A stretch of 64,000 nt of DNA from Endocalyx cinctus (lineage: Eukaryota; Ascomycota; Sordariomycetes; Amphisphaeriales; Apiosporaceae), in contig BCKC01000007.1 in assembly GCA_001600455.1 (NCBI GenBank), positions 1,738,019-1,802,018 of the forward strand, read 5' to 3'. The position numbers and the translations under genes were made by a program. Shown here one piece after another: positions 7,360 to 53,002 of the stretch (positions are counted from its first letter, which is position 1; each line of letters opens with the position of its first letter). Below the pieces are notes generated by a model. It saw only the letters and a program-made list of their open reading frames with translations. It was not told where the DNA came from and did no database searches.

Positions 7360-8516
7360 ATGGCTGAACCAAGCCAACAGACAACGCTATCTAAAGAAGC
7401 GGAAGAGAAGGTGTCCGCGACCACGATAGGAGCGAATCCTACGGTTGAAGATGATGCGGCTGACCCCGATGAAGACGACTTGGATGATTTGGATGACATG
7501 TTAGATGAATTCTCATCTGTGAAAATAAATCCGAGGCAACCAGCAGCGACAACCGCAACATCAGCTTCGGGTCCCGGACGACCAACTGTGGCCGATCCAA
7601 CATCGACGACGTCGGCGCCAACATCAAGCACGGATATTCCCGCCGGTCTCGATGACATCTCACCCGAGGATTTTGAGAAGCAGCTACAGGCTGGCATGGC
7701 CGAATTAATGAGCGAACTTGATAAATCGGTTCGTGGCCTGACCTAGATCTTTTTCCCTCCCCCACTGCTCTTAGGTTGCTAACGCGATTCGTAGCCGGAT
7801 ATGCAAGCGCAATTCGAAAACATATTTAAGGGACTTGAGGACACCTCGGCATCTGGATCGGGAGATGATCGGGGTAAGGTTCCGGGGTCGGTCGAGAAGG
7901 CCGCCGAGGATCTCAGCCACGAAAAAAACTTCCAGGACACGATACGGCGCACCATGGCCCGGATGCAGGAATCGGGAGACCAAGCTACCGCCGCAGCCGC
8001 CGCCGGCAGCTCGGAGGACGACTTCATCGCCGAGATGATGAAGGCCATGAAGGACCTGCCGGAAGGAGGAGAGGGCGGCGAGGAAGACTTCTCCAAGATG
8101 CTCATGAACATGATGGAGCAGCTCACGAACAAGGAGATCCTCTACGAGCCGATGAAGGAGTTGAACGACAAGTTCCCGGACTGGATGGCTAAGAATAAGG
8201 CTACCCTCTCGAAAGAAGACTTGAAGAGATACGAGGAACAGATGACGTTGGTTGCGGAGATGGTAGCTAAGTTTGAGGAACCTAAATACGCCGATTCCAA
8301 CGCTGCCGACCGCGAATACATTGTGGACAGGATGCAGAAAGTATGTGTCACGTGTGATTCCCTAGCAGTTTCGACACAATTTTTATATGCTTAGTCAAAC
8401 ACTAACTCGCGATCTAGATGCAAGCGGCAGGCTCGCCGCCCCCTGATTTAGTCGGGGACATGCCATCTGCGAAAGAAGTACTCGATGGACCTGATGATTC
8501 GTGCGCGCCGCAGTAG
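7360..8516 (+). CDS. pex19: Peroxisomal biogenesis factor 19 (PEX19)
   Basis: Farnesylated chaperone and import receptor for peroxisomal membrane proteins; it binds them in the cytosol and docks on PEX3. Three exons (7360-7728, 7795-8340, 8418-8516) join in frame to 337 residues. The N-terminal half is acidic and disordered (DEDDLDDLDDMLDEF, which matches the PEX3-binding segment). The C-terminal half has the helical cargo domain with KEILYEPMKELNDKFPDW and ends in the CaaX box CAPQ. The last exon, too short to stand alone, supplies that prenylation motif, which confirms the third exon. The start at 7360 gives MAEPSQQ. Confidence 0.96.
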
Positions 8517-8791
8517 GGTTGCGTTTAGAGATGATTTCAAGCTTTTATCAGGGTTACACTGATTTAATATAGCTATCTCATTTGTAATTATGCATTACAT
8601 GGAGCCTTTGATATATACCGCGCCGTAAATAAAAAGGGCCAGGCTCTTGGAAGGCCTGTTCTACCTCCTAAACGCCACAAAATGACTAAACCGAATAACT
8701 CCTTGACATGTCCGAATGATAACAAAATGTGAAACAGAACACCGATGAATGCATACCCTTATTACTCGACGATCAGTTAACAATCGTTCCC

Positions 8792-12791: not shown

Positions 12792-13511
12792 TTAAATATT
12801 GTAGTCATCCGATTCCTCCCCGTGAGAGGGGTGACGGTTAGGGATGTCCGTATGCAAGATTTCGTAAAATCCGTCCGGCTGTCTCAACTCCTTAGCTCCG
12901 ACGGGCTTGTGAATTGTATTTTTCCACTTATCGAGGTCGAGCGTATTCTCGAGTCGCCACCGAGTCAAGCGTTCGAAATCGACGCACTGCCGATTAACGC
13001 TCATATCCGGAAACGGGTAATCCTCGTACTCGATCCAATGCATAGTGACGAGGTTGAGATTTCCGCCGCAGGTGATCGCCTGCAGCAGTATGTCGACGCA
13101 ATGGCCCATGTGGGCCTCGAACATGGCCTCCGGGTCGGACGCCCCGCGCCACGCGTGCGGAGGGTAGTAGTTCGGGTAGATCAGCTTTCGGAGCGTGTTC
13201 AGGCAGTGCAGTTGGTGGTACACGTCCAAGATGGACGCGTATGCGTCGTCGCCTAGACCCCAGATCGAGTCCTCGAGCTTCGCTGCTGTAGAAGGATCCT
13301 TTCCCATCGCGAGGATCTGTGCCGACGATACGGCGAATACCCGCGTTAGCTCCCACTCGTCCCAGATCGCGTCTACTTCGGGGCTGGGAGGTCGGCGCGC
13401 GAGCGGGACGTCTTTTTTAGGCGGATATAACGTGCCGTTTATTTTTCGGACTCGCATGTCCATGTCAACCAGGTCGAGTAGAGGAGCTGATATTACGTTA
13501 ACGGCGTGCCA

Positions 13512-13545
<34 letters not shown>

Positions 13546-13796
13546 AACGGCTGGATTTGACGCATAGGAAAATTTCACTCACTGTAGCTCGATGCTTGAC
13601 GGAGTTTTGGGTTCAGCTTAAAATACGTTTCATTGACGTATACCAAGAAAAGGGTTAACGAGAGCACGAAAAAAAGAGCATTGCATGTGGTCAACGCTAT
13701 TATGCCGCTCCGGCGTCTGTGAACGGGGTTTCGGGCTCTAGCCTCCAAGAAAGCTTCTGTTTCCGGCTGATCATCGTCGAGATAGGGGGACATCAT
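12792..13796 (-). CDS. UstYa/DUF3328 family oxidase
   Basis: UstYa-type proteins catalyse oxidative ring closure in fungal ribosomal peptides (ustiloxin, asperipin, phomopsin) and also act in other pathways. Two exons (13583-13796 and 12792-13486) join in frame to 302 residues. Residues 1-25 are cytosolic, followed by one membrane segment (about 29-50), then a lumenal domain. The two diagnostic HxxHC motifs are present: HQLHC at 162-166 and HMGHC at 197-201, with a conserved ITCGGN after the second. The first exon was assigned because it supplies the membrane anchor and fits the phase. The intron carries a run of about 27 T on the coding strand. It faces away from the peptide precursor gene across 952 bases, which suggests shared control and substrate. 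Confidence 0.92.
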
Positions 13797-14748
13797 TTTT
13801 CAGATGTTACAAGAAAGGGGAGAAGAATGTCACTCTTCAATTTCATACTTTGAAAATTAAGTGAGTTGTTTAAGATGATTTACGATATTGGAAATGGCGG
13901 GCATTGAAATCTCAACACAACCTTTACAACTTGCGAAAATCATTTGTCACGACAACACGTAATGATGCCGCCTCTTTTTCTTATCTTCTTCATTTGTTTG
14001 AATTATTATTATCCGTTTTTTCTGTTCGATTCTGGTATGAAGCTCACCTTCCCGAAATCCAGCTTATATATTCCCGGTATAGCTTGCTGAAAATCATAGG
14101 TTGACGAGAAGGTACTTTTGCTCGTAATATGATTAACGAAATAAAAAGAAATGGAAAGGATCGATATGCCTTTATAGAATACGCGAGATTCGCCGAACCT
14201 AGCATAGCTGTAGTAATTGACAAGGGTGGTAGGGTTGATTCTACCGGGTTAGCTTGGCGGCACAGCTGTTCAAGTGCAAGGTAGTTACAGCGCATCTCAC
14301 GACTATTGCAGCAAGAAATTTGAGAAACACTCGTAGCAATTACCGCATAGAGCTGGGTTCGATCTACGGAGTAGGTATATACACGGAAAAATATTGTCGA
14401 TACAATCGCACGGTCTTATTTGAACCGGAGACGCCGGCTGCTTCTGATAAGACGGGTGGAGCCAAGACGGAGCTCGAAGGAATTCAAGCATGTATGTATG
14501 TAGAGAATCGGTCACCGGTCACCGTTATAGGAAAGAAGTCATTTCAAGAAATAGCTTGTTTTGACATTGACATTAGGTAACTAGTTAAGGAGTGGGGGAA
14601 GTCTTGTAGAACAACATTGAAATATATAAAGCGAATATCTTCCATAGCCAACCTGATGGATCTACCTTCCACCGCAGACACAAATCTCACGCTTCTCCTC
14701 AACCTCACATTTCACTTCTCACCCGATATCATCATAAATCTGGTCAAG
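13797..14748. other. Shared divergent promoter of the UstYa-type gene and the peptide precursor
   Basis: Intergenic. Overlapping open frames at 14254-14580 (plus) and 14044-14295 (minus) have no family support. The bidirectional arrangement would allow co-expression of enzyme and substrate. Confidence 0.6.
14623..14630 (+). promoter_or_regulatory. Probable TATA box of the peptide precursor gene
   Basis: TATATAAA lies 119 bases before the precursor ATG, a reasonable distance for a short 5' leader. It is the best TATA match in the divergent region. Functional use is inferred. Confidence 0.5.
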
Positions 14749-15056
14749 ATGCGCAGCACGCTCCTTATCTCCGCCCTCGCGAGTATTAGCTCACTCGTGC
14801 TCGCTGCCCCCATCGCCGTAAGTAATTAATGAAGAAACCGCGCTTTAAGCCAGCATAGGTGAAGAAGAAGTTCTTATCGCTGACATCTAAACCCCCCAAA
14901 AAGGAGCAAGATAAGCACGAAGCTCTCCCGGCCGAGGCTGCTGCGCTTGAGCCCACCTATATTCGCACCTATCTTGGCGGCAAGCGAGAGGCTGCCCCGG
15001 AGGAAGCTTCTGAACTCGAGCCTACCTACATTCGTATGTATCTCGGCGGAAAGTAG
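14749..15056 (+). CDS. Secreted repeat-peptide precursor, candidate dikaritin-type RiPP
   Basis: Two exons (14749-14817 and 14859-15056) give 88 residues. Exon 1 encodes a signal peptide (MRSTLLISALASISSLVLA, then API). The 41-base intron removes an in-frame stop. After a Lys-rich linker come two copies of LEPTYIR(T/M)YLGGK, at residues 53-65 and 76-88; the first is followed by Arg, making a Lys-Arg Kex2 site, and then EAAPEE. A signal peptide, repeated Tyr-containing cores and KR sites define UstA-like precursors, and a UstYa-type enzyme lies divergently next to it. Most codon differences between the two copies are synonymous, so the peptide itself is under selection. The final product is unknown. 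A secreted signalling peptide is the alternative. Confidence 0.75.
14946..15053 (+). repeat. Two-copy core peptide repeat inside the precursor
   Basis: Copies are at 14946-14984 and 15015-15053, with a period of 69 bases (23 codons). Of 13 aligned codons, one differs in meaning (Thr versus Met) and about six differ only at the third base. Confidence 0.9.
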
Positions 15057-15416: not shown

Positions 15417-15929
15417 TCATAGGATGACACAGCAACCCGCCGAATCATGTCCTCGCCTATACCCTCGGGCATACCCATGAAACCTTCCACCAGAAAAGCC
15501 ATCTACGTAGCCTCGGTAATAACTCTCCTCGACCCCCTCAAGTAAACCCTCCCGCAAACCCTCCATAAAGCCAGGTTCAAAGCAAATTCTCCCGCCTTCA
15601 CGACGTCCACGGCGCAACCCCTCGCTCTGGCCATCATTGAGCGAGCTCTGTACTTGGCTGATAAGCATCCCAGCCTGGCTCGATGAGGGGATGTTGAAAT
15701 TGTTATTTCTGCGGATATTGACGACGGTTGAGGATGGGGTAACGGTTCTAATATAGCAACGCTCTCGCATGGCGGTACGCGATCGACGACGGGATCGGGG
15801 TACGAGTCTTAGTTCGATAGCTTGCGTGGTTTGATTTGATGATCTGCTTCTGTGACTACTAACTTCCTCTGATTCGTAGAGAGGGGGGTCGTCGGGGTAG
15901 ACACGAGCTGCAGGTACTCTGGAAGTCAT
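15417..15929 (-). CDS. Small protein with GX3 repeats and a CaaX prenylation tail
   Basis: Single exon, 170 residues, starting MTSRVPAARV. The frame stays open upstream to 16001 but without another ATG. The first 60 residues are Ser/Arg-rich. The last 55 residues place Gly at nearly every fourth position over eleven positions (GFMEGLREGLLEG through GYARGYRRG), with one Ser substitution; this resembles the deca-GX3 motif of Yae1-type proteins. The chain ends CCVIL, whose last four residues CVIL form a CaaX box; a final Leu favours geranylgeranyl transfer, and the extra Cys could be palmitoylated. Function is unknown; a membrane-tethered role is inferred. Its promoter lies in a transposon relic. 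Confidence 0.75.
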   Translation of the reverse strand: MTSRVPAARVYPDDPPLYESEEVSSHRSRSSNQTTQAIELRLVPRSRRRSRTAMRERCYIRTVTPSSTVVNIRRNNNFNIPSSSQAGMLISQVQSSLNDGQSEGLRRGRREGGRICFEPGFMEGLREGLLEGVEESYYRGYVDGFSGGRFHGYARGYRRGHDSAGCCVIL

Positions 15930-17173: not shown

Positions 17174-18786
17174 TTAAATAACAGTACCAGTGATGTGAAG
17201 GGTTTTAAGATTTTCGACTCTTCTCTTTCGTTCGTTAACCCCTTCCAGATATTGCGGAGTCCACGCTTCCTGCCACTCAGTTAGTTCTAGTTGAGGTCCT
17301 TCTGTATCTTTGATGATAGAGTAGAGCTGGTTGAGAAACGCCACACTATTGGGATACTTGTTATAGTGAAACAGAGACGTCTTGTGGTCCACTTCTGCAA
17401 GGCGTGACTCTTCCCATTCTTTCATTTCCACTATTGGCGGCAACTCGACTCGTCCGGCTAGATACGCCGCTATCACGGCCGCCTGGTACTCAAATACTCG
17501 AAATGATACGCTATTCTGGATTAACCCGACAAATGACAGCGTCGGGTCGTCCCGCCAAAAAGTGTGAAGGTATGTGCCTGGTACCCAGTCCGGGATAAAG
17601 CTTCGCGAGTGATTATGGTGCGCGTAAGGCGGCTCTAAAAAGGGGAAAGAAATATGATATCCAGTGGCGAATATGATCGAATCTGGGAAGATCGTAGACC
17701 CGCCGTCTTTGAAATGGAAGTGACCTGTAGTTGGATCGATGCGACTTAACTCCGATCTCACCGAGATGCTAGGAACACCTTCGAGTGATGTTGGATACAT
17801 CCAACTGGCCGTGCGATGGGACACTGTAAGTTCAGATGCCACCGGTATGAGGTCGCGGATGAGATCAAGGGCAGTGATCCCATTACCTACGATGAGAACA
17901 GACTAATTAAAAGAAGGGGAAAAAATTAGCTAAGTTCTTTGGCATCTCAGGTTCCTATTAAGGCGGTAAATCGACTAACCTTGTTCTCGAAAGGTCGCGT
18001 CGAGCGGAAGTATTTGGAGTGAAGAGCGCGGCCTGGAAAGGCTCTGTTGTACTCGGTCAAACCTGACACAGCAGGTATTTTCGGTACAGAATATAGGCCC
18101 GTGGCAACGATAACGGCATCAAAAGTCTCTCGATACCAGTAATCATCAGTATGGGAGCTCGATTGTCTCATAGTTAGATGCCACTCAGAGCCATTCTTTA
18201 TCGCTTTCTCGACAGTCGTGTTCAACACCAACTTATCGGCATGTCTTGAATGTAGCGCCTGGATGTATTTTAGAACGCGCCCTGCCGATGGAAACATCGG
18301 ATCTGAACTCTCGGTGGAAGGCGTCTTGTCAATCTCTGAGAAGTGAACGTAGGTGTATGACATGATATCCTTCGAATCGTCAACGGCGGTTTCCGAGAGA
18401 TTAACTCAAGTGCACGTACAATATTAACATTGGTGGTGAGATTTTCATACACTGGTGCTGTGATCCACCGCTCTCGCTCATTATCGCTGGGGGTGGTGCT
18501 TGGCAGATCTTCAGGTATATTCGAAGGTTTGTCTTCTATACTTGGATGGACTACAGGGTCCGCGGGCGGGATGTAGGGCTCAGGATCAAAGTTCCTATCA
18601 GAACATCAGCGAGTCGCCTTAAGCTTAGGGTTTCCCTACCGGTTAATACCATGCACCGCCAACCTCACCTCGGCGCTCGAAGACTCGTATGACGTCGAAG
18701 CATCCTGTTTGTTGGACTGCTTCGGCCGCGGCAGCACCTGATGGACCGGCACCGATAATAGCGACGCGTTTAATGGAATTTGACAT
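17174..18786 (-). CDS. Flavin-containing monooxygenase (FMO/Baeyer-Villiger type)
   Basis: FAD- and NADPH-dependent oxygenase of the FMO superfamily. Four exons (18650-18786, 18420-18594, 17980-18369, 17174-17902) join in frame to 476 residues. The FAD fold is GAGPSG near residue 12, followed by the family GGAWNF segment. The second nucleotide fold is VGNGITALD at the start of exon 4. ATGYHISFPFL is the usual FMO ATG motif. No signal peptide is seen. It lies between the ribosomal-peptide pair and the polyketide cluster. Ustiloxin-type clusters also include such oxygenases, so either pathway may own it. Substrate is unknown. Confidence 0.9.
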
Positions 18787-19560
18787 GTTACACTAGCACT
18801 CTAGTGATAAGCACGGAGAGACGCTACGGCCTTTTAAACGCGCCAGACTTTGATATTCAATATCATCCGTTCCCTTTATAATGCAGCATAAAGATGATGT
18901 TATTTTCAGCCCCTTAGATATCTCATCTGGTACGCGATAGAGACCGGGAGGAATCGCGAGCGATTACTAAACTACCAGCCAATAGCTAAGTTAAGTATGG
19001 GGCCGAGGCGGGGTAAGGTGGTGTCTTCCGCCAGTCAGTTAGACCGGGCATATCCCTGAGTAGTTGAGTAAACACTTATTGGAAGATCCGGACTAACTTC
19101 TACTATTTAAGATATAAGCGATATCGGGCTGATCGGGAAACCTATAAGTATGCCATTCACGATGTGTCTGACGCCATAAGTGCAATCTACTTCCGAGATA
19201 CATGAATCTGATAAACTACGAAATTTATTTGGATAAATAATCTCAAGCAAAAGTGAGTCTAATTTGATTTGTAAGTATTCACTTGTACACTTAATCATCA
19301 TTGGTATTCCCGTCTTTTCACCGCGGACGTTGACTATATTAGAAAAATATGACTGGAATAGATTATAGCCGGACTATTCACGCACTATGAACGTGGACTT
19401 CTATGGGATGCGGTGTTTCACTACTACATACGAAATGTTTAAGCGGGTCTTAAGTGTTTTCATGTTCCGAAGTTGATCGAATTGAGTAGATTAAAGAGTG
19501 TGCTCTACCGTAATCAATTGGTTTGGTTTCGGGTTGTTGCTCTGAACATATTCGCATAAT
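18787..19560. other. Intergenic region
   Basis: Promoter of the monooxygenase gene and 3' region of the transporter. No coding signal is seen. Confidence 0.6.
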
Positions 19561-21344
19561 CTAGGCTTTCGTGTCTTCAAGAACTCCGCAACTCTCATCA
19601 ACACCGACAGATCGCTGTCTCTTCTGGTCCCTTAGACTGAAATATAATACAGCTAATAATGAGACAAACTGTGCAATTGTAGTGACCAACACAGAAATGA
19701 AACCAGCTCGGAAGTTGGGCCCACCGCTGGCGGGGAACTGAACTACTTGGGTCCCTGCCGTGATGGCTTGTCCAATGGCATTCATGCTGGCCGTGACCAC
19801 AGCACGTTCTTCGGCATCGCCTGCCATGACTATCGAGGCCCAACCCATAGTCAATAGGGAGCAAGCTAATTTGATGGTGTATCATTAGTCGATAGACTCC
19901 TGGAATTTCATACATGCACAAATTAAGTTACTTACCAGACTCGAAACCCGTAAGTATAAATCCGGCTAAACGACCACTTTCACCTACATCCCAAGCCACT
20001 AAAATACACATTCCAATTAGCATAGGAAATGTGACTGCGATGGCTGGGACCCAGGAACGACTAATCCTATCGGCGGCGATGCCGGAGGCGAGAGCCACCA
20101 CAATGCTCACAGCCGTGGCAATGGTCGGAATAGTGTTAATCTGTACTATGCTGTACATGTCGCTCTTCGCCTTGAGATAGAGCGAAAAGGGTTGTCCTGG
20201 AGGTAAAAAGTTCTGATCCATCAAGGCCCATTGCAACACAAATAGGTACCAATGCCATCGGGTGAACACGCGCTTGAAGATGCTGCGAGAGAGTTTTAAC
20301 TGAGGCGGAGCCGTAAGGTTCTCGATTCGCTTTTGTGCTAAGGCGTGCTCTGCTGATGTTAGGAGACGCGACTTTTTCCGTGATGGGACGTCAGGGAAGA
20401 CGAAAAATCCACTGGGTTACTGTTAGGTACTTCATATTTGCCATATTTCTAGACAACATTTCTCTTTTACAAAAGATGAATTACTGAGATCAAATGGACA
20501 GCTCGGGCCAACTTATAAGACTGCAATACCAAGCGTGATCATTGCATCGACGATAAAGAGCCACCTGTTCCACTTCCGAGTCAATGCGGGACCAATATAA
20601 TCACAAATCTAAGGAGTTACTCACCTCCAACCAGCCAAACAATGGACCTGGTTCAAATTCGTATATGCCGCCGCTTGTAGGTAACCGGCAAACATTGTTC
20701 CTAAGGGGCTAGCTATGAAAAATAAGGATACGCGGCGGCCGATCTCACTTGGCTTGTACCAAGAACCTATGATGTATATGGTCCCGGTGAATGAGCAACA
20801 TTCGAAGACGCCGGTGAAAAAGCGCATGGCATATAGTGTTTCGACATTTCGTGCCCAGGCCAGACCAAATGTCGATAGTCCCCAACCAAGCTCGAGAGTC
20901 GGCAGAACTACATTGGCGGGATAATGCGTAAGGTAATAACAAGCCGGGATCATGAAAGTGCAGTATGAAGCCCAAAAGGTTGCCGTTATGTAGTTGAACT
21001 CATCTCCTTGCATGTTGAGGTCTTCTTTCATGCCGCTATTAAACCATTAGCTTGTTAATCTTAGATTCGAATAATATCTATACTATGGCATACCTGACAT
21101 AGGCGTTGGTAATAGATTGCTGGTCCAGGTACTTCGTGAAGAATGACAAGCATCCGAATATAAGAATGCTCAAATCAAGCTTCAGTATCAACACCTTCTC
21201 TTCTGTTGGCATATCTTTTGGATACCAGTGCAGCCGTGTCATAAAATCGACACAGACTAAGTCTGAGCCCTTCGGTGGCTTTGTATCATGAGGACTGTCC
21301 TGATGTACTATCGGTGAGGTAGTGGCCTTCCTAGGTGGCGCCAT
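19561..21344 (-). CDS. Dal5/Liz1-type major facilitator transporter with a mutated splice donor
   Basis: Anion:cation symporter branch of the major facilitator superfamily, which includes allantoate, nicotinate and pantothenate carriers. Five exons (21094-21344, 20625-21035, 20517-20564, 19936-20411, 19561-19865) sum to 1491 bases, 496 residues, with family segments FTKYLDQQSITNAYV, ATFWASYC, MRFFTGVFE, IGSWYKPSEIGRR, SPLGTMFAGYLQAAAYTN and FTRWHWYLFVLQWALMDQNF. The third intron (20412-20516) begins ATAAGT instead of GTAAGT; only this non-canonical junction keeps the frame. If it is not spliced, translation stops at the next codon, near residue 238. The gene may therefore be non-functional or rely on a weak site. 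It diverges from the luciferase-like gene. Confidence 0.85.
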
Positions 21345-22090
21345 TGTTATGTATAAATATCTGAGATATCTCAATGTTCGTACAACTAGTCACTTTATGA
21401 GCCCCTTCTTTTTTCATTTAGATTAATCGTAAATATAAATATCAATGTTAAGGGCGAGACCTAGGCGAAGTGGGAATATGTTTCTGATATATTCATCGCC
21501 ATCTGCTTCTCGCATATTTATAAGCAGAATGAAAAGGGCTTAAAAAGGAGATTAATATAAGTACAAGAATCATCACATATTCAAATTAATTATGGTATTC
21601 TATGCTATACGATTGGAATTATGGTGCAAGTCCGTCTATGATAAAAGGAGAGGGACGGTGGGGAATAACGTCAAGATGCCCTGGAATGGCGTTACATGCA
21701 GGCATCGGACATTGCAGATTGGCATGCGATTATGCTTCTTCAGATCCGCTACCATTTATATAGGTTGAGAAGTACGGTGTTACTGATATCGGGGTCATTT
21801 CGAATATCTTGTATTTATGGAGTCGATAAGTATGATATCAAGATCCGGGAATGTGACGTGATGAAATACCCTGCAGTCGCCAATGCAGCCAACCCCCGAC
21901 CGACCGGCGCTACTGTAATAGACATCACAACCAATCGAGACGGGAAGTAATGAATATAAACAAACCAAGGTGGAAGAAACATAATTTTAATCATGGGTCG
22001 AATATGGTAAATAACTTATTGAACATCTTCTTGACCCTCGAGTATGCTTGTTTGAGCCGTACACACCTTCAGATATCATAAAAAGACATT
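21345..22090. other. Divergent promoter region
   Basis: Lies between the transporter and the luciferase-like monooxygenase. An 84-residue frame at 21696-21950 has no family support. Confidence 0.6.
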
Positions 22091-23923
22091 ATGAATTTTC
22101 AAGGTTGGAAATGTTTTAAGTTGTTACATTCGCTCCATAGTAAACGGCGATCTAAAAGAGCTACCGAAGTTCAATCAGATGATAAGAGGGACTCAACTAC
22201 CCAGGGAAGTGAGACTGTTAGCCCACACGAGATGGATAAGGGAAAGAAGCACATACTTCTCAATGCCTTCGATATGGCAACAGTAGGTCACCTCTCGCCG
22301 GGCCAATGGAAAGTGAGTAATCCTGAAATTTGATAAAATACCCGTATGAAAGCGTTAAGGCGATAGGGGTGGACGAATATCAACCTATTATCTGGGACGG
22401 AGTATTTAAAGTCAGTGCTAATATGGGACTCGATAATAGCGAGCTGGCGACCAAGGTGCAAATAAAAGGGACTTGGAATATTGGATCGAACTGGCCAAGA
22501 TATTAAAGCGCGGGAATTTCAATACTCTCTTCCTCGCTGATATATATGGTGGCTATGATACGTACGAGCAATCGTTGGACAGCTGCATTAGACGCGCTGC
22601 ACAATGGCCCATGTTGGACCCGACTATTGTGAGTCGACCAGTTCACCGGGCTGATCTAAGAAAAACCTCAGGAGCATCATTAACGAGAACTTCAGCCCAT
22701 TTCAGCAATGGCCGCGGTCACCAAACACCTAGCTTTTGGAATTACTGCCTCGACCTCGTTCGAACCACCGTTTCTAATGGCTAAGAGGTTCTCTACTCTG
22801 GATCATATGACCAAGGAAAGAATCGGTTGGAATATCGTAAGCTATTTTCTTTACTTTCGGAATTCGTTGGTTATATGTCTTGTTCGTGATTGATTTCTAA
22901 TCACACATGGAATTTATGGGCATACAGGTGACATCGTGGAAAAAGGGGGCGTTCAAAGCGATAGGTATCGATACTCCCATTGAGCATGACGAGAGATATA
23001 TGCAAGCCGATGAATATCTTCGCGTCATGTATAAGTAAGTTCTCTCCTCCGGTCAATTGGGCTACATATTTTAGCTCTACACAGAGCATTTTGAAACAAG
23101 AAAGGCGTGGTTTCTAACGATTCTACTTAGACTATGGGAAGCTTCCTGGGCCGATGATGCTGTCAACCCGAAACCAGCGGAAGAAATATATCAGGACCCA
23201 AACAAGATCCGTAACATCACTCACCAAGGGAAGTATTTCTGCCTTGATACACGTCATATAGTGGATCCCTCACCTCAGAGAACACCGTTCCTCTTCCAGG
23301 CCGGTACCTCATCTGCTGGGATTGATTTCGCTTCAACGCACGCCGAGGCGATATTCCTAGGGGGCCAAACACCAGCTTCCGTTGAACCTAAGGTCGCCAG
23401 AATCAGGGCGGCGGCCGCCACCAAGGGGCGGGACCCGCGGAGTCTCAAAATTTTCGTCACGATTACGCCGATCCTGGGCCAGACCGACGAAGAGGCGCAG
23501 AAGAAGCACGAGGAGTATCTCAAATACGCTAGCACGATCGGTGGATTAGTCTTGGTCTCAGGACTGACAGGTATCGACGTCTCAAAGGTGCCCCTAGACG
23601 AAGAGCTTAGTGCTGCGCACAGCACCGAGGCTAACAAGGTGCATAGCCACTTGGCAACTTTTATGGAAGGAAACCAGAAGTGGACGCCGCGCACCCTAGC
23701 GAAGAGGGTGGCGATCGGTGGATTCGGGCCTCTCGTGGTTGGAAGCCCCGCGACAGTTGCGGACGAGCTAGAGAGATGGGTGAAGGAAGGGGATGTAGAT
23801 GGGTTTAACATCGTTCATGTGACTACACCGGGCTCGTTTGAAGACGTCGCTGATCTGTTGGTACCGGAGCTTTGCCGTCGGGGCTTATACCCGGAGCCTT
23901 ACGATGAGAATGAAGATCGCTAG
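22091..23923 (+). CDS. Luciferase-like FMN-dependent monooxygenase (NtaA/SnaA/DszA family)
   Basis: Family members use reduced FMN supplied by a partner reductase to oxidise small molecules. Five exons (22091-22312, 22440-22628, 22696-22836, 22928-23034, 23131-23923) join in frame to 483 residues. Family blocks are LLNAFDMATVGHLSPGQW, DLEYWIELAKILKRG, LFLADIYGGYDTY, ISAMAAVTKHLAFGITAST, FSTLDHMTKERIGWNIVTSW, DERYMQADEYLRVMYKLW, FLFQAGTSSAG and GFNIVHVTTPGSFED. The N terminus has about 50 extra basic, Ser-rich residues; Met49 could be the alternative start. It sits between the transporter and the synthase, so a tailoring role is inferred. The substrate is not predictable. Confidence 0.92.
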
Positions 23924-24334
23924 ACAGCGCGAGAGAAAGTCTACGGAAGGGGCCAGAAACACTTGAGAGATGATCATATTGGTAGCAGATACAAATATGA
24001 CGTATACCAATAGAATATTGCTGACGAAGAAAAAGCTTAAATAGTTTAAAGAAAAAAAAAGTCACATTAAGCCGGGTTTCTTAAGTCGTTCTACCTAGTC
24101 AAACAAAGAGCAGACATACTAGTAATAAGCCTCCTGATTATCTGATACTTCATCACACGAACCTTTCCCCTCCAACTTCAAAGTGGCATATTATCCCGCG
24201 CTCCCCTTTTCACCTTATAATCGCGCGATTATACAGCGATCTCGCAACTAAGTAGCAGTTTTATATACCCTGGCCCTATTACTTTTGTTATTCTTATAAG
24301 AAACTGGTTACTCCTAATTAAAAACTCCAATGAA
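23924..24334. other. Convergent 3' intergenic region
   Basis: Lies between the luciferase-like gene and the 3' end of the polyketide synthase. No gene is seen. Confidence 0.6.
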
Positions 24335-27300
24335 CTAGGCACCATCTTCTTTCCCATCACGAAATCTCGTCCGTTTTGCTGCCTCATGGCAAAGTTCCAA
24401 CATGCTAGAAGTGCCTAGTAGCTCAAAAATGGTAATTTTAGCACCTAATTCGCGCTCAAACCAATTCCTTAAGTCCATGCTCAAAAGCGAGTCCACCCCG
24501 TAAGAAGTAAGAGGTCTAGTCATATCCATCTCACTTGAACTTAGTCGTAGGATATGGGCTACTTTTTCGCCGAACCACTTAATTATATTTGCCGCCACTT
24601 CATCCATAGACGCAGCCGCTGAGATGATCGAAACGTAATCTATGTAATCAGCTTGAGCCCGCGAGTTTTCGTTCTCGTCGCTGGCTGACTCGATGTGATG
24701 AAAGTGGCGGAAATGTGGGCGTGTTAGGTAGTTAGGCACGTTCTGTCCCTTCTTACTTATCACCGAGGGAAGTTCCACGCCGAAGATGGTTTGTCGACGC
24801 TCCACGTCCGTATCGCTAACCCAATTTTCAGGGCTACAGTGGTATTCCAAGAGTGAAAACATTTCTTCTTGTGAAATCTCCATCATCTGTCCCATTTCTC
24901 GGAGGGAGGTAAGCAGGCCTTTGGTTTCGGCCACGACGCCCTCGGATACTAGCATCCCGAGATTTACGACGCTTGCCGGCTCGCCCATCTCCGTGCGGTA
25001 TTGGCATAGAGCGTCTTTGTACGAGTTTCCAGCTGCGTAGTTAGCTTGACTGAGTCCGCCAAGGATGGATGATACGGAAGAAAGGAGGAGGAAGAAGTCC
25101 AGTCTTTTGGGCATCGCCATATGCAGGTTCCACGATCCTGAGACTTTAGGTCGAATGCTTTGAGCCCAGTCCTCCCAGGTCATATTATCAAAAATTGCAT
25201 CCTATTTGTTAAGAAGGTTATTATTTTCTCTGTACGTTTAAAAGTATGTGTAGCAAATTGAATGGGAAGTTAAAAGAGACGCAGGGGCAACAAACCCTGA
25301 GTAACATGGCCGATTGAATACACCCACGAATCGGTGGCATTTCCTTGGAAGCTTCTTCGATAACTCCTCGGAGTCGGTTTATATCGGCTATATCGCAGGA
25401 CGGAGCTGAGGCGCGAGCTCCTAAATCAGCTAGGTCTTTGATCAGAGATTGTGCGTGTATGTTCCTCATGCCCCTCCTTGATAGTAGCAGTAAGTATCGT
25501 GCTCCCCTCTCTACCATCCAGTGTGCAATGCTACGACCCAGGCCGCCAAGCCCGCCTGCTATGACATAAGTGCCATTGCTGTCAAAGCTGTAGAGCGGTT
25601 TTGTCCGGATTATCATCTGTCACATTATTAGCCGTAAACATTTTTGGATATACTGTTTTTCTTTTTTTCTTTTTTTTTTTTTTTGCATACGCACCTTTGG
25701 TACACTATCTGGGGCCAGTTCGATAGTGCTACTTCCAGACTTATGTCCATCACGAAAGAAACAGAGCGCTTCTTCGACATCTTCCGGCTGATAAACCTCT
25801 ATACCCAACGGGGGAAGAAGTTGTTTTGCTCGTAACTGAGTGCCAACGGCCGCTAGAATAGTGTATATAAGTTCCTGTCGTTTTTTCAGAATATCGGAGA
25901 AGTTTACTCGCGAAAAGGACTGATTGGAAGTTCTAAGCTTTGATTGAGGAATTGTAATTCCCTCTTCGCCAACTTGTATAAAACGACCGAATTCAGATAA
26001 AGAGTTCCATAAGCTCTCAGTCTCTGACTCCTTAGGTGATGCATTAACGACGACGTCGATTCCCCGGTCATTGGCGGCATTGAAGAGCACATCTCGCGAT
26101 AACTTTTCGATGTTCATTACTATGTTTTCCTCAGGAATAGTGTGATCTGATAAGAGCAGATCGCGTTGAGTATGGTTCCGAACAGTAGTGAAGACTCGGG
26201 CTCCCGAATTTAACGCTACTTGTATGAAAAACTGGCCTAGTGTGGTGACTGCGTCGTGAATTAATATGTTTTCACCCTTCTCAAGATGGGCTACATGAAT
26301 CAAACTGTATACTGCAATCACAGCGGCCACGGGAATTGTCGCAGCCTGGGTATGGGAGATATCAGCAGGGATGGCGACCACGCTCTTCGTGGGGCAGCGT
26401 AAGATGCTCTGGAAAGCGGTTGGTTTCAAGACGCAGACACGATCTCCGACTCTCAGGCCAGAGAGCTTGCCTGCAGCCTCTACTACCCCTGAACATTGTG
26501 TTCCAATCCCATTTTCGTTGGGAAGACCTGAAGCGATCGTATAGTCTCGCGGCGTTAAACCTAACGCGTGCACTCGGACTATAACTTCGTTCTCGGCCAG
26601 ACTTTCGGTAGAAATGTCGATTTCATGAAAACGAGCCGTATGTAACAAACCGGGTGAATCAATGCGCAACTCAACAGGAGGAGAATCGCCAAGTCTTTCT
26701 TCAATCATATGGTGTGACTTGCTTCTAACAGCAATTATTTCGTTCAGGTGTCTGGAATGAATGACTCGATTTACGTTGAGTAGACCTTCCCTTTCTCGAT
26801 ATTCAAACTCCGTTTCGCTGTCTTCGCTCGATAGCATCTGGTCAAATACATCGATAATCGTTTCTCCAAGCTTCCCTGGCGACTTTTTACCTCCCGGTTC
26901 TAAGGACAGTGTTACCAGTCTTCGAAGCGGATATTCGGCACGGATCACACGAGCAAACCCGTCAATCATACCGTAATCAGGGGGTATGGGGGTATCCTTA
27001 GCGCGAGATACCCACAAGATTGGCTTGGAAGAGCTGCTTATGATACCTTTAAGTCGATTAAACGCATCTTGATTCATCCTCGCTAGAAAGGGTTCGTCGA
27101 CTTCCAGCAGAGAAATATAAAGGATCTCACTCTCTTCTTCTAGAGCCTGTGAATAAAAGTTCACGATATTGCATGTGGCTCCGATATTCCTAAAGTGACC
27201 CACGATAAACTCAGCAAGTTCATACTGAGTCACGGAATCAAATTTGGCCAAGATTGTGATGGAACTGGTCGAGTCAAATGTCTTGGCAAATGGCAATGAG

Positions 27301-30300
27301 GGCGTCGCGACGAGTATAGATTGCTCGCTGACGTCAGGATCTTCAAAATCTTTAAGGACCAAATCAAGGCCCTTAAATCCTGTATCTTTTAATGTCTTAT
27401 TCCAGGAATCCACAGAGAGCAGAGGTGTGTGCTTTTCGGGGTCCTTGATACTATTCCACCAGCCTTTTAATACACCTCCGTAGAGACCAGCCCTTATTGT
27501 TTCAGGAGAAGTCGTCTCAAATAATATCAATTTCCCCCTCCTGAATGTATCTCTTTTTTAGTCTAGGATCTAGAAATGCTAGAGCGTGGGGATGAAGACT
27601 TACTGTTTCATAAGTTTTCTGATATTACGGAGAGCTGCCGGTAGATCTTTGAGAGCATGTAAAACCTATGAATGATTTAGTCAGTGTTATTCATTCTTGT
27701 TTTTCTTTCCCAATGATGAAGCTAAATCACATACGTTTCCCGCAACTACGAGGTCATATTGGGCTTCCTCAAACCCTTGATCCAGGAGATTGCCGCCGGC
27801 ATCCAAAACTCGAAAACGCATGCGGGAAGTAAAAGTGGAGAACTTTTCTTGTGCTTGCGAAAAGAAACTCGGAGAGATATCTGTGTAGTCGTAGCGAGCC
27901 CATCGCGGCTGTCCTTGCTCTAATAAAGCCGAGGTAATCGCCTGTGTGGAGCTACCCGTGCCGGCTCCGATTTCGACAATGTTCATGTTTGGGTTTTTAT
28001 GACCCATCAAATCTAAATACCTAGTTAAAGCAGGGATTTGCGTTCCATGCGTCATGAGCTGCTGATAATAATCACTTGCGAGGGAGCCTTCAAATAGAAG
28101 CGGGATAGGATCAATTTCTCCTCGAATGATTTGGTAAACTGCCTCGCTCAGAGTGACTAGTACCTTGCCTTCGGCGCTGTGGTTTCTTGCGTATTCAATC
28201 TTGGCTTTCCGGAAATTATTGTTTTGTATCATGTCAATTTCGCAATCTTGGGAGCCGTATTTCGGCCCGCGCATTTGATATCTAGCCCATTTTATGAGAT
28301 TTTGCGAATGGTCACTGAATACTTCCTTTTTATTGGCACCCTCCAGGCGATTTAGGGCGTCAAAAAGGAAATATTTGATGACAAGGTGAAGATCGTGATA
28401 GAAATCTAGAAATATATCGGTTTCTATCACGGGAAATTTCGCGGAGCTTACAAAATTCTGCAGCTGTAGTGGAGATAACATGTCTACGTCGGGACGCCAA
28501 CGCATCGTCGCACAAAGTTTTCTCACGTAAGAGTCGCTAGAATCGCCGCTGCCGCTCTGTGATATGATAGTAGTCTCGAAATTATCCATGTCGATCAGGG
28601 GCAAGCCCGTATCGCTCGCAGAGGCTCTCGCGCGTGCATTCGTTTTACGATAGCCCTGGAGGAAACACTCCGCGATCACTTTGACTTTATTATTGCTAAG
28701 CTCTCTCAATGCACTAGCATTTACCCAAAGTCGTTGTATACGACTAGGAACAAGAGTCTTCTTTTCGTTGCTTTTTGAGTCATAAGCCGGGAATACAAGT
28801 TGAAATATGCCGTCGACAGTAGCTGGATGAAGAAAATGCGGAGATATATAACTATCACCATAGGTAGCCGCCCACTTTTTCGTATCAACGGTACCTAGTG
28901 CATATCCGTCTTCTTCGCATACCGAGACATTTTCCAACGTCTGAAAAGCCGGACCGTAATCAGCATCAAAGACTGCTCGCAGACGACTGTATATTTCCTC
29001 GGAGCATAATTCCCGTCTAGTTCTATGAAGCCGGCTTTCGAATGATTCTGTGTCCCATCGCTGTAAATATCTGGTTGCATCGTTTGTCTCTTCATCGTAA
29101 TGAGCTCGGATCTCACCGCAGCAAATTTCACTCCATGATCCATCTTGATGGATAAAAAGTTGAAAAAGCTTCCAGGTAGGATTTTCGGGCAGAGGCAACA
29201 CGGTGAATCTAGTTTCGACAGAGTTACCTTGCTGTAAAGTTTTAAACGCCTTCAAAAATCGAACATCTCGAAATTCATAGCTGGAAGGTACCTGGGAGAG
29301 ATATGACAGTTGTTCCATGGCTTCTATAGCCATCACTATCATTCCGCCACCCGGGTAAAGGTACGCTCCCCCTAGCTTATGGTCTCGAAGCCATGGTAAT
29401 CGCACTTCATCTATCAAGGCTCTCCACTGCGGTTGTAGTGGGTTCCAATCCGAGCTCTTAACTCCGAGAAAGTCATGATAGGGGGTATCTCTGAGCCGGT
29501 AGTCTCTTCCGATCCGACTTTCTCGCCAATATTTCTGCTTGTGGTTGTATGAGTATTCCGGGAGGTCGGTACGAATAGTTCGGGCAATGTCTGGGATATT
29601 ATTCGTGGCAAGAAGATCCACTGCGTAACCTAACGTGAAGAACTGCCCTGCGAGGCTGGAAATGTCCTCGAAAGCTGAAGGAGAATTTCGGGACAACGAT
29701 TTATGGTAAGTGACATCGCTGCTCTTTCTCAGTGCTTGTAACGACTCTCGAATCGGCCCACGAAGGGCATGATGCGAGCCAATTTCGACTATATCCGTTA
29801 TAGCAATAGATTTGCGATTCTTAGAACCAAGAACTTTACGCTGCCTTCCAAAGTTAGAACTTAGCTTTTTCATGGCATCGAAAAATTTGACAGTGTTCGT
29901 CATGTTTTTTATCCAGTAAGCTGCGTCTCTCAACTGGGATAGGCTTATGAAGTCTCCGGTTACGGAAGAAACAACGAGAACTTCACAGCCCGGCTGTACC
30001 GGATACCCCGATAAATCATTCAGGCAAGTTAGATATTCATCAGCAATGAGTTTCATATAACGTGAGTGATATGCAATATTGATCTGTAGCTTTCGGGCAA
30101 ACTGTTGTTTGGCTACTATCAAGTCTTCGAGATAATCGAGTTGTGTTAAATCTCCCGAAAGTGTGATATTCTTATCGCTATTAACACATGCGATATCAAC
30201 TTTATTGTCGCCGAACATCCTTTTCAACTCATCGAGATAATGGAGAGCTTCTTCACAGCTCATACCGGCAGCCATCATGGATAGCTTTTGTTTTGTCGCT

Positions 30301-32829
30301 TGTAGGAATTTTGAGGCAAGACGACCCCTATGAAAAGCAACTCTCATTGCACTTTCTTGGGTAAGTGATCCGGCGCAGTACCTAAAATGGGGCATTAGGG
30401 AAGGTTCGTACATGAAAGGAAAACAGTACCGAGAGAGAGATATACAGAAAATAAGATGAAAAGACTTACGCCGCAGCTATCTCGCCCGAAGAATGGCCAA
30501 GCACAACTTTCGGCCTGATGCCAAGTTTTGTTAAAAGGTCGACTAGCGCAATCTGCAGAGCTGTGCAAAGAGGCTGACTATACTCAGGCTCGTTTATCAG
30601 ACCGGCGTCCTTATCGGCGAACATACAATCAAGCAGCCGCCATCCGCAACCTACGGAGTCAAGCGATATTTGGCTGCGAGACAAGCTTTCTCTAAAGGTC
30701 TGAAATGCCATCAAGGCTTTACCCATTCCAGCGTACTGAGATCCCTGACCTGTAAAGATAAAGGCCGAACTGCGCGCCTGCGACGCCTTGACGCTGGGTA
30801 ACGCTTGGGTAAGCTTTTGACGCAAATCCGAAGGATTAGAAAAAGTTATAAAACTTCTCCAAGAAAGTCTGGTACGCTTCACTGCGAGAGTGTATACTAT
30901 ATCTCTCATATCATCGTCCGTCAAACCGGTTTCGTGACGCTCGAAAAAATCCAACAGTTTTGATTGCATGCGTTTGATGCCATTTTCATCAGCACTGGAC
31001 CACACCAATAAACCCGGGCTGAATTGGCGTTTTATCGTTGAATCTCCATCATTGTGAATTTGCAACTCCCAATAGGCTGGGGGCTCTACTCTCGTCCGAT
31101 GGCGAGTCATGGATCCTTTCTGGCGTGGATAATGATAAGCATCATCAAGAATTACCACACCATTAGATCCACCGAAGCCGAACGAGTTGATCTGCAGTGT
31201 GACATATAATATTTAGTAAATAATTTCATACAGGCTAACATATTTATCTGGTATAAAAACTCACACAAACTCTCCGCAAACCGTTTGTTGGCCACGGCCG
31301 CGCGTCGGTAGGAATCTGTGTAATTATCGATTAGATTTCACCTGAAGACTATTTTATATATGTGTTTATCATTTTAAAAGGTTTTGGGTAATTACCGCCA
31401 AGTGGTATCGATCTGCTTCAATCTTCGGATTCAGTTTTTCGAACCCCGCATTGGGTGGGATGATGCCATTTTCAAGTACGAGGATAGACTTGAAGATACC
31501 CGCCATACCGCTGCCTGCTTCTAGGTGACCTATATTCGACTTCACAGCTCCGACCCAAAGTGGGTCAGAAGTCGATCGAATGTCGCAAAAGGTCTCTCCA
31601 ATTGCATTTGCTTCTATCGGATCACCGGTCTGAGTGCCGGTGGAGTGAGCTTCGAAAAAGCGAGTCGGTTCCATGTCGATATTCGCTTTGGCGTAAGTCT
31701 CACGTATCAGCGTCTTTTGCGCCTCACCACTTGGTACCGTGATCCCTGGAGTTCTTCCGTCTTGGTTTAATCCTGTAGCACGTATGATCGCCCTCACAGT
31801 GTCGCCATCCCTCACAGCATCCGAGAGTCTCTTGATCACAAGCATGCCAAAGCCCTCACCGCGAGAATAGCCGTTGGCCTTCGAGTCTAAGCTCCAGCTC
31901 CTGCTATCGGGTGATAGAAAGCCCATATTACTCATTATTTTCATGTAATCAGGATGGTAGAAAAGATTACAACCGCCGACCAGTCCCTAAGCAGGCACGC
32001 AAGTTAGTAAGACTATATCTTTTTTTTTTTTTTTTTTTTTTGATATTGGGAAAATTTGATATCATTGTCTAATTACCATATTTGTGGCTCCACTTCGTAA
32101 ATCCTCGCATGCCAAGTGTAGGCAAGTTATACTCGAAGAACAGGCTGTGTCAAGGTTCATGCTAGGACCTTTCAGATTGAAGAACCAGCTGATGCGGTTC
32201 GCCAACATTGACGAAGATAACCCACTTGCCGCATACGTATGCCCGTCTAATGGGTCTTGGAACAGAACGCTTCGATAGTCATCTGTAAAACTGCCGGTGT
32301 GTACAGAAGTCCTGGTGCCAGAACATTGATCCAAAGGTATCCCCGCTGTGATAGTTGGGAATTAAGTCAGATAATGGAGAATTTTCAATTATTTTGTATT
32401 TTGTATTTCACTTCCTACCATTCTCTAGAGCTCTGTAAGCAGTCTCGAGGATCCCACGCTGCTGTGGTTCCATACACTCGGCCTCGGCCGGCGTGATCGA
32501 GAAGAAAGGGGCATCGAACACGTCTATCGGTTCTTGTATGAAATTTCCGCCCCTAACCGGCAACTGAAATAAGATAGGTTACAAGTTTTAACCAGCATAT
32601 CATAGAAGAAAAGCAAAGAGCGAAGTTATCATACCTGGTCTAGCCGAGACGAGTCAGGATGATAATGGCCACGGATGTTAATCCGTTCAGGTGGGAATTC
32701 AGTCATGGCTGATCTCTTATGAAGTAACATGTCCCAGAAGGCGACTGTAGAGCTTGCATCTCCAGGAAACTTGAGAGAAAACCCGATTATTGCGATTGGC
32801 TCTGTGGTATCCTCATTTCTTGCCTCCAT
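24335..32829 (-). CDS. Highly reducing type I polyketide synthase (KS-AT-DH-MT-ER0-KR-ACP)
   Basis: Iterative synthase that builds a reduced polyketide from malonyl-CoA. Eleven exons join in frame to 2571 residues: 32635-32829, 32419-32563, 32077-32345, 31396-31986, 31265-31315, 30470-31191, 27735-30381, 27604-27665, 25695-27540, 25296-25616, 24335-25201. KS: Cys182 in DTACSSS, EAHSTGT (Ser where Gly is usual) and [20 protein letters not shown] near 650. [13 protein letters not shown] and [11 protein letters not shown]-methyltransferase: [10 protein letters not shown], then [20 protein letters not shown]: the cofactor loop reads HDAVTTLGQ instead of the usual AAAGGVGQ. KR: GGLGGLG and the Ser and Tyr of LLSSVSS and [21 protein letters not shown]. 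No release domain follows. Confidence 0.96.
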
Positions 32830-33752
32830 TTTAGCCTTAGAATAGGGGGAACAAGGCTCGGTGCTTGTACTATCGTGGTTCGCAGACGCCGCGGAGAAAA
32901 AGACAGTAAAAGTTAATTCGGGTCGTAGAGAGGCTATCAGTTCAAGTTGCCATAGATGGAAAATACGAGAAAATAGAAAGAAGTTTAATATCAAATGAAA
33001 AGTGAGGCTCTTTGGTGAATTGACATGCTGAAATCTAGCCACAATCAAGCTTACATCGCACAATGTATATGAATACGGTAATCAATCTGACAAACCCGCA
33101 GTGGTAAGAGTCGATATTACATACATGTTAAACAAGTACACGGCAAGGCAAGAATATGTCGATAAAGAAAAGAGATTGCGTCTAAATCCTTTCTGTGATG
33201 TCTATTGCGCTCCGACCTACCTAATACAGGCATGTTTTTCTACTGTTGCTTGTAAATGTGGATGAAATGTATCATTTGCATGTATATCAACATTGCAAAT
33301 AGTAATTAGGGTATCAATCAAGTTCTAAGGATCCTTTTACCTCGCATGCTAGTTTGATGTATTCTGGTCAAGCGGGATCGGATTGGATCATGAGTATACT
33401 GTAACACACGAAAATCAATGCGTCAATAAAGAAGAGGTATGGGATATGTGAGAGGAGATAATGCAGTGACGTGGCATTCATGCGCAGTCTATTGACTCCT
33501 ATAATTGACTGCATTTGTGACATCTCCGCTTCTTCATGACTGAGATGGAACCAGATCAATTGAAAAGAAGCGGAGTGAAAGTGTGAATTTAAAAAGTATA
33601 TACAGATGAGAATCATATAGCGATAATTTGTATGCTTCTTCTCCAATTTATATGCACCACAAAAGGCCATACTTTACTGGAACATTAATCGCTTTCACTC
33701 GATCGATCGATTCCCCCCAAATCCCGAGTTTCGATTTTAGGATTCAACGAAA
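32830..33752. other. Divergent promoter of synthase and hydrolase
   Basis: The synthase frame stays open upstream to 33063, but the only Met giving a family-like N terminus is at 32829. No further gene is seen. Divergence suggests joint regulation of synthase and hydrolase. Confidence 0.6.
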
Positions 33753-51035: not shown

Positions 51036-52107
51036 GTTAGTTAGATTTTATCTTCTAGACCTGGTCGGTAAAAAACATCTAAAAAACGTGTATTAACAGC
51101 TTGTTCTTTCATCTAACATACACGAAATATATAAGACTTCAGCTACTCCTTGGTAGTAAATTATTGCGGTGCTAATATGAGCCAACATTACACGAGGGAG
51201 TTGGCAGTTACTTCGAAATCATTTCACGCAACCTTGTCTCCATAATGCATCAGCTGTTCTAATATACATATCTAATTTTAACTACACCCAATTATTCATA
51301 TCAGTATACTACGCTTTATGTTATAAACTCGAGTAGGTCTTTGCTTTTTCTTCTTTTTTATTATTATGGATATATAAAGAAGTTCATAAGGGATACTTAG
51401 AGTGACAAGGGACATATGTATATAGCTAATTTAAAGTATAAGCCTTTACCTCCATAGTAATAGTATGTTTAGAGACCCTTATGCTATAAGGACTATGCAG
51501 AGCACATGTATATTCTGTATTGTGTTATGTAACCCTAACATACATCACTGTTACATGTTGGACTAAAGGGTTTGATAAGTTGGCTCACGCTATGTTTGGC
51601 TCCCAAGGGGTAGGTTTGGCTCCCAAGGGGTAATTTGACCAATGCTTTCTTTTCTTCTCTAGTTGGATATTTCACGATAGCCGGAAAACAACATTAGATA
51701 GGCATTTGGCCAACCTGGGTTGGCCAAAAAAGAGAACAACGCCGGTCTATGTTATTCCAAAGTCCAACTGATGAGCCTAATCTAGTTGTACCAACATAGA
51801 GGACGATAAGATCTAGGACAATGTAGAGGAGCAAACAAGTATATAAGTCTGAGCTGCTTTGCTCAAAATCATAGTATTTAAATCAGAATATCATCATCAT
51901 TCACAACATTCGGCTTTCAACGATCGTCTCTAGAATTGCCAGACAGTTATATTGAACGTCAAACTCAATATCTTTTCCTAAGTCTTTCGGGATTGAAAAT
52001 AATACCAGGACCTTTTTTACCAGACAGCTCTAACTAAGCCCAAGTAAGTGCATGAGGACACCGTCGTGGTATAATACTGCTGAACCTGACATTGACCGAC
52101 CTATCTC
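51036..52107. other. Repeat-derived interval
   Basis: Contains an exact 19-base direct repeat at 51594-51632. No gene is supported. Confidence 0.5.
51594..51632. repeat. Exact 19-base direct repeat
   Basis: GTTTGGCTCCCAAGGGGTA occurs at 51594-51612 and again at 51614-51632, separated by one G. Confidence 0.95.
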
Positions 52108-53002
52108 TCAGTTTATTAAGCCATCGAAATATGTTTGCAGTGGGAGTGGGTTTATACCTGTAAGTCCCCCCCCCTAATAACGCGCCATCCTGGTAACGCG
52201 CCACCTCTACTAACTTATATTTAACACGCGTTTATAAGCGAATTCTTAATACTCCCATTATTTATTTTTTTTTTAACAATAATATTTTAATTAATATAAT
52301 ATTTATATCATTTAAATCGCATTTTTAAGATTTTTCTAACCATAACAACTATTTTATGAGAATATTGCGTTATTTGTGCGATATGGGATTATAAACTTAA
52401 AAAATACAATTTATATACTACTTATATTAAATAAAATATTAAACATACTTACGTATAACGTCGTATAAATAGTATATTAGTTAAAAAAGTTATTTTTAAA
52501 GATTTTTAAGCCTTTTTTTCTACTTAAAAGCATATATTAACTAACTAAACTATTAAATAAACCTAATTAAAGTATATTTTAACTTATTTAAAGTTTTATA
52601 TAATAATTTAATATATACTAATTATTTTCGGGAGCTTTTATTAACTAAAAAAAAGGGTAATATTATCGCTTTTTGGCTAAAAATCTTAATATTAAATATA
52701 CTAAGTTTAAGGTTATTAATTATTTAAAGGTTAATAAAATAATAAAAATTAATATTAACGTTTTTTTTAACCGATTAAATATTTTAAAAATAATTATTAT
52801 TTTACGTACGCGTTAATATAATATTAATAAAATAAGTATCGGTTAGGGTATAAGAGGTAATCATTTTATAATAATTAAAACCTTTAATTATATTATTTTA
52901 AAAAAAAAGGTCGAAAAAGGCGAATAAATTATTTCTTTAAAATATATTAATAATTTTAAGGAAGTTTTTCCCCTATTAGTAATATATAAAAGTGTTAACG
53001 TA

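Follow-up and report, generated by a model that had tools for sequence, protein, structure and literature searches.

A gene for a UstYa-type oxidase (DUF3328) and a gene for a small secreted repeat protein lie head to head in a fungal genome (44.76 Mb in 15 contigs as analysed here), which raises the question whether the two form a small dikaritin-type RiPP locus, in which the UstYa protein acts on the peptide released from its neighbour, and which oxidation it would then perform. The preliminary description had proposed such an arrangement, with a UstYa/DUF3328 gene opposite a secreted precursor of two repeats and Kex2-type processing, and its parts (a PF11807 match, the repeat and the Lys-Arg site) were all recovered. 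We place the probability of this reading at roughly 0.74; the anatomy and the setting support it well, and its chemistry is argued by analogy. It draws on the strong PF11807 match with both HxxHC motifs, the close adjacency of the genes, a constrained Tyr-containing repeat, six further precursors among the 31 UstYa loci of the genome, five of them modelled with the same exon layout, and the presence of a kexin. Counting against it are the presence of only two repeat copies, a precursor without detected homologues, and the lack of a recognised reductase or of a tyrosinase nearby. The layout below refers to the window, that is, the whole 64 kb stretch of DNA that was analysed.

12792-15056, both strands: the whole pair, UstYa gene (minus) and precursor gene (plus), divergent, with 952 bases between them
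12792-13486, minus strand: UstYa exon 2, encoding the catalytic domain and its HQLHC and HMGHC motifs; stop codon at 12792-12794
13487-13582, minus strand: 96-base UstYa intron (GTGAGT...ATCAG) containing a long T-run; position backed by alignment
13583-13796, minus strand: UstYa exon 1, N-terminus and a hydrophobic stretch at about residues 31-54, probably membrane-spanning (sequence and alignment)
13797-14748, no strand: region between both start codons, 952 bases
14623-14631, 5' of the precursor: TATA-like element TATATAAAG, read from the sequence, with a putative promoter role

The start codons, re-read from the sequence and from the ORF translations at 13796 (minus strand) for UstYa and at 14749 (plus strand) for the precursor, agree with the coordinates and the separation first given for the pair. 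A scan of the intergenic region for bacterial-type promoters was set aside as inapplicable to a fungus. The UstYa gene is complete and encodes 302 residues in two exons (12792-13796, minus strand) with a single 96-base intron, and a 33-sequence alignment spans the splice junction, which reads SSY-T-P here and (S/T)Y-S-P in many homologues. Against PF11807, exon 2 reaches 149 bits (Pfam cut-off 25). The locus is the best of the 48 UstYa exon matches across the genome, and both of the HxxHC motifs claimed for it are present; in the alignment H162, H165, C166, H200 and C201 are invariant and H197 is conserved in at least 90% of the sequences. The locus thus holds a UstYa/DUF3328 protein with two HxxHC motifs, as expected of a dikaritin locus. 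An AlphaFold2 model of exon 2 reached a mean pLDDT of 77.9; the best Foldseek match of this model in the PDB had E 1.9, and a PDB sequence search gave no match at E ≤ 1 with the single UstYa protein and a best E of 0.076 with a profile.

Of 594 candidates in a protein search with UstYa, 126 reached E ≤ 0.001. Among the 120 of these 126 matches that were listed, the top one is an environmental protein with 54% identity, the leading named relatives come from Microdochium (58% over 80% of the query) and Kalmusia (51%), and further ones come from Apiospora (46-50%) and Bisporella (50%), with Microdochium, Kalmusia and Bisporella belonging to three different classes of Ascomycota. No relatives were found at E ≤ 1e-3 in genome-contig and viral-contig DNA collections. 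Since relatives are up to 58% identical across ascomycetes and the best-scoring paralogues within its own genome only about 31%, the UstYa protein is part of a widely shared subfamily, whereas the precursor is without detectable relatives. A conserved enzyme with a fast-changing precursor would give this pattern, and a precursor that became its partner recently may equally be expected to do so. The precursor gene is laid out as follows.

14749-14817, plus strand: precursor exon 1, signal-peptide-like MRSTLLISALASISSLVLAAPIA; a similar layout is modelled at five other UstYa-linked precursors
14818-14903, plus strand: precursor intron, preferred 86-base form; in-frame acceptors, branch point read from the sequence
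14818-14858, plus strand: alternative 41-base intron, the form given in the preliminary description
14904-15056, plus strand: precursor exon 2, both repeats; stop codon TAG at 15054-15056
14946-14984, plus strand: core copy 1, LEPTYIRTYLGGK (repeat finder)
14982-14987, plus strand: putative Kex2 site (Lys-Arg), with EAAP after it (from the sequence and a kexin-type P domain in the genome)
15015-15053, plus strand: core copy 2, LEPTYIRMYLGGK, with the stop codon directly after (repeat finder)

The N-terminus resembles a signal peptide, as had been proposed and as a dikaritin precursor should have, with a peak mean hydropathy of 2.35 over 10 residues. The 41-base intron originally assigned was probably misplaced: that form is possible, but no good branch point is seen inside it, and in-frame acceptors also permit introns of 47, 50, 53, 86, 89, 98 bases and longer. 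The choice among them followed the rule that a branch point precedes the first AG after it. We prefer the 86-base form, which is in frame and runs from the donor at 14818 to an acceptor AG whose last base is 14903: it offers the better branch point, a consensus-like GCTGAC that precedes the first AG downstream of it. This intron removes VKKKFLSLTSKPPKK and leaves a precursor of 73 residues, as against 88 for the 41-base form; the cores and the Lys-Arg are identical whichever intron applies. The introns at the five other UstYa-linked precursors measure about 55-77 bases in the shortest plausible models (the gene-model script offered several alternative introns per locus, and the shorter ones were taken), which lies between 41 and 86, so that length does not decide between the two. 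The same script gave no model for the window precursor, in which the hydrophobic peak starts one residue past the filter.

As first described, the precursor carries two copies of LEPTYIR(T/M)YLGGK, in which residues 5 and 9 are Tyr. A single Lys-Arg separates the copies; it closes the first, and the second ends in GGK followed by the stop codon. The 13-residue repeat itself stands, and the repeated unit proved longer than stated, extending over 22 residues of which 17/22 are identical (EALPAEAAALEPTYIRTYLGGK and EAAPEEASELEPTYIRMYLGGK). Repeated cores separated by a Kex2 site, another hallmark of dikaritin precursors, are therefore present here as two copies and one Lys-Arg, and the genome has a kexin-type P domain (two adjacent matches, consistent with one gene). 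The core copies differ at 8 of 39 bases, seven of them at third-codon positions, and of the seven codons that changed, six still encode the same residue, the seventh giving the Thr/Met exchange; both Tyr residues are retained in both copies, and one residue between them varies. When eight random substitutions were drawn 200,000 times, one amino-acid change or fewer resulted in 54 trials (0.027%, P = 0.00027). The repeat is under protein-level constraint, with copies that stay alike in protein while third positions drift. Applied to 2.56 Mb of dinucleotide-shuffled sequence (40 shuffles of the window), the repeat finder had no match, and in the real 64 kb it found this repeat only.

By analogy with characterised pathways, the signal peptide would take the precursor into the secretory pathway, where Kex2 would cleave after the single Lys-Arg, as reported for ustiloxin, and Kex1-type trimming would strip the basic ends to leave ...TYIRTYLGG and ...TYIRMYLGG, both ending in Gly-Gly. 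The EA and AP that follow Lys-Arg would let STE13-type trimming, described as removing XA and XP dipeptides (PMC6339444), shorten the N-terminus of the second copy. A membrane-anchored UstYa protein, probably facing the lumen, would then oxidise the freed peptide, and the most likely reaction is the bridging of a Tyr side chain within Y-x3-Y; the two kept Tyr residues are the likeliest bridging site by analogy with asperipin-2a. The two genes may also be regulated jointly.

The four-gene asperipin-2a locus of Aspergillus flavus (aprA/aprY/aprT/aprR, core FYYTGY), as described in PMC6514808, combines a ribosomal precursor with Tyr in its core, one UstYa homologue and no tyrosinase, and the window locus shares these features. 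It differs in having another core, two copies and an MFS gene as the only transporter, and in that no asperipin-type, isoflavone-reductase-like gene was recognised near the pair. Kex2-separated cores and UstYa proteins are likewise shared with the ustiloxin and phomopsin loci (PMC7329392, PMC10512285, PMC6514808), but the ustiloxin precursor is reported to have 16 copies (PMC10512285) against two here, and the tyrosinase reported as required for ustiloxin and phomopsin (PMC7329392) has no match in the 64 kb window, the nearest on the contig being more than 1.3 Mb away. The ustiloxin locus is also described with a methyltransferase (PMC6514808), whereas the only such domain in the window lies inside a polyketide synthase (PKS), according to a Pfam scan (E 0.001) of 40 of the 45 window ORFs of at least 120 residues from stop to stop, in which the five remaining ORFs overlap scanned ones and exons below 120 residues fall outside the scan. 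The window thus departs from the original five-gene dikaritin form, which includes both a tyrosinase and a methyltransferase (Ding, quoted in PMC12048977), and as a tyrosinase is absent nearby, an asperipin-like route fits better than a ustiloxin-like one.

We set the odds of Tyr bridging by this UstYa protein at about even, since UstYa proteins also carry out other oxidations. Homologues are reported to desaturate, hydroxylate and chlorinate in the phomopsin and cyclochlorotine pathways (PMC12048977, PMC10512285), and the window enzyme might do any of these to a RiPP precursor instead of bridging its tyrosines, an account that overlaps with the dikaritin-type reading and departs from it in the last step. 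We consider this possible, and on balance rather unlikely, in view of the two Tyr residues that are kept in both copies around a varying one and of the reported enrichment of Tyr in DUF3328-linked repeats (65.6% of the repeated sequences with DUF3328 neighbours, compared with 38.2% of the others; PMC7329392).

A different fate for the precursor would be the release of linear secreted signalling peptides, as from a pheromone-like repeat precursor (KEP), with the UstYa protein working on something else. The EA/AP after Lys-Arg resembles STE13-trimmed precursors, and a low repeat number is known in some alpha-pheromone precursors, which are reported to carry fewer repeats than usual (PMC6339444). 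Database searches brought up a further point of this kind. With the 88-residue precursor, a search of 5.8 billion proteins, which had been proposed as a check, yielded seven candidates and none at E ≤ 1, in keeping with the novelty that had been claimed. An eight-copy query, built to reach longer precursors, gave a single match at E ≤ 10 among its 7991 best candidates (E 2.2e-4), the environmental protein P0121, a secreted repeat precursor of 133 residues with four copies and the core RPYGLP(I/V)GG. It was rejected as an orthologue because the similarity is mainly confined to GGKREAAPE and the cores are different (RPYGLPIGG in P0121); the two precursors have in common GGKREAAP around the Kex2 site (IGGKREAAP in P0121) and not the core, so that this weak match contains the same processing stretch. 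On the other side, the precursor has no MF_alpha match, and its residues 1-28 match MF_alpha_N only at E 0.39, with 11.1 bits where the cut-off is 22, so that neither Pfam family of the alpha mating factors is represented. The alpha-pheromones of filamentous ascomycetes have a Trp-Cys...Cys form, which is not seen in the core; a search with a W-C...G...C pheromone pattern was uninformative, with 77 matches and 88 in the control. In addition, pheromone-type KEP genes are described as almost all lacking DUF3328 neighbours, with three exceptions (PMC7329392). Linear signalling peptides therefore seem improbable to us as the product of this gene.

Within its own genome, the precursor found only its own locus at E ≤ 10, and a four-copy query added one match, antisense over the same place (E 0.05). 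A degenerate core pattern had two matches in the genome, both at the precursor, and one in the reversed control. No paper with the core string was found in the open-licence PMC literature (supplementary tables outside the search), which agrees with the earlier statement that the core matches no named product; strings like those of P0121 were likewise not found there.

The surroundings of the pair have to be considered as well.

7.8-8.4 kb, on the UstYa side: Pex19 gene (Pfam)
11.0-12.3 kb, on the UstYa side: ABC1-type kinase (Pfam)
beyond the precursor: an ORF of unknown function, then genes for an FMO, an MFS transporter, a luciferase-like monooxygenase and a highly reducing PKS

At 17174-33081, the FMO-like, MFS and luciferase-like monooxygenase genes adjoin the PKS, which has a methyltransferase domain and lies at 24-33 kb; the MFS gene, the only transporter seen, is about 5 kb past the precursor. 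Judged from its gene content, this stretch is probably a separate biosynthetic cluster, and on the simpler view the FMO, MFS and luciferase-like genes may belong to the PKS. The UstYa gene could serve that cluster together with them, the small repeat protein being incidental: the PKS is 9-18 kb past the precursor with oxidases between, and DUF3328 enzymes are reported from non-RiPP clusters (PMC12048977). Given that the precursor and one further ORF stand between UstYa and those genes, and that the repeat is constrained at the protein level, we regard this as quite improbable. That the repeat ORF is a chance or decayed gene we dismiss as barely credible. No homologue was found in the 5.8-billion-protein collection, but the shuffles of the window (2.56 Mb) gave no match, so small a number of amino-acid changes has P = 0.00027, and a signal-peptide-like start, splice sites and a TATA-like element are all in order. 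Beside the precursor, at 15417-15929 on the minus strand, lies a 170-residue ORF in which Gly recurs at intervals of four over a stretch, with a weak Yae1_N match (E 0.041, below the cut-off) and no second copy found in the genome; it ends in CCVIL, which looks like a CaaX prenylation end.

The dikaritin-type reading gains context from the other UstYa loci of the genome, where the 48 exon matches resolve into 38 gene-like units at 31 loci. A dibasic-spaced repeat precursor was found at 7/31 loci, the window locus included, and none at the remaining 24/31, in flanks of about 0.8 to 5 kb per side (the whole window for the window locus); thus a UstYa gene alone does not imply a precursor. The figure of seven is a lower bound, given the limited flanks and a repeat finder that requires KR or RR and ungapped repeats, for which the shuffles and the remainder of the window served as non-UstYa controls. 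The six further precursors are listed by locus.

L036, 7000-7182, plus strand: DGTTEFDPDTAF, two clear copies, perhaps a degenerate third
L038, 2820-2990, minus strand: DGDTPLNVDVDYKI, two clear copies
L041, 7184-7354, plus strand: DGTT(K/G)(I/M)DPDEGF, two clear copies
L044 (G000:C2:5574000-5583000), precursor exon 8224-8637: EPDTIYYQKYI, six copies
L050, 5093-5317, plus strand: (E/D)IDVADAF, five copies
L052, 3298-3813, plus strand: VNFPAPHNSY, six copies

About two copies are thus seen in four of the seven precursors (the window precursor, L036, L038 and L041). L036, L038, L041, L044 and L050 were modelled like the window precursor, with a short intron that separates the signal-peptide exon from the exon holding the repeats, and the L052 precursor is a single exon that reads through. 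The repeats of L036, L038 and L041 are of an RDG(T/D)T type and apparently represent one family of Asp-rich low-copy precursors. L044, which has three UstYa genes and a tyrosinase match (G000:C2:5587074-5587809) about 4 kb past its stretch, looks like a fuller cluster of the ustiloxin/phomopsin type. Its precursor resembles that of the window in the Glu-Pro lead-in and a Y-x3-Y-(I/L) motif, but Lys-Arg follows the motif directly in L044 and only after Gly-Gly in the window; the window also differs in its single UstYa gene without a tyrosinase, and the best-matching L044 UstYa is about 30% identical to the window protein.

In a survey of 7878 KEPs, DUF3328 genes were reported as the commonest directly beside them, with 1758 repeat precursors (22% of the Umemura 2020 set) having such neighbours (PMC7329392). 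The window precursor resembles the KEPs of Umemura 2020 and Le Marquer 2019 in its signal peptide, its dibasic-separated repeats and its DUF3328 neighbour, the last as in 22% of the Umemura set. Umemura 2020 asked for at least three tandem repeats of at least 8 residues between Kex2 sites (PMC7329392), and Le Marquer 2019 also sets three repeats as the minimum (PMC6339444), so that a precursor with two copies lies outside both lists and should not appear in the published KEP tables; a study in Venturia accepted one repeat or more (PMC9632046). The earlier remark that a low copy number makes such genes easy to miss is borne out by these rules; judging by the two-copy precursors at UstYa loci of this genome, a requirement for three copies seems to leave some members of the class unseen. 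The novelty is nevertheless smaller than first implied, with 1758 such KEPs in one survey and six more loci in this genome; very probably, what is new is the core sequence and the low copy number, and the class of ribosomal cyclic peptides is already known. Five dikaritins had been reported by 2022 (PMC10512285), as against 1758 predicted KEP-DUF3328 pairs (PMC7329392), and one UstYa gene beside one precursor offers a clean test of the action of a single enzyme. A wider suggestion, tentative and in our view unlikely, is that the UstYa subfamily whose named relatives (about 50-58% identical) come from Xylariales, Pleosporales and Helotiales serves a class of low-copy precursors invisible to repeat-based mining, here for Tyr-bridged peptides with a diglycine end, perhaps from a two-gene locus without a tyrosinase. 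A tRNA scan of the 64 kb window found none; within the window, positions 52001-54000 are AT-rich, their GC content being 24% where the adjoining 2 kb to either side has about 39%.
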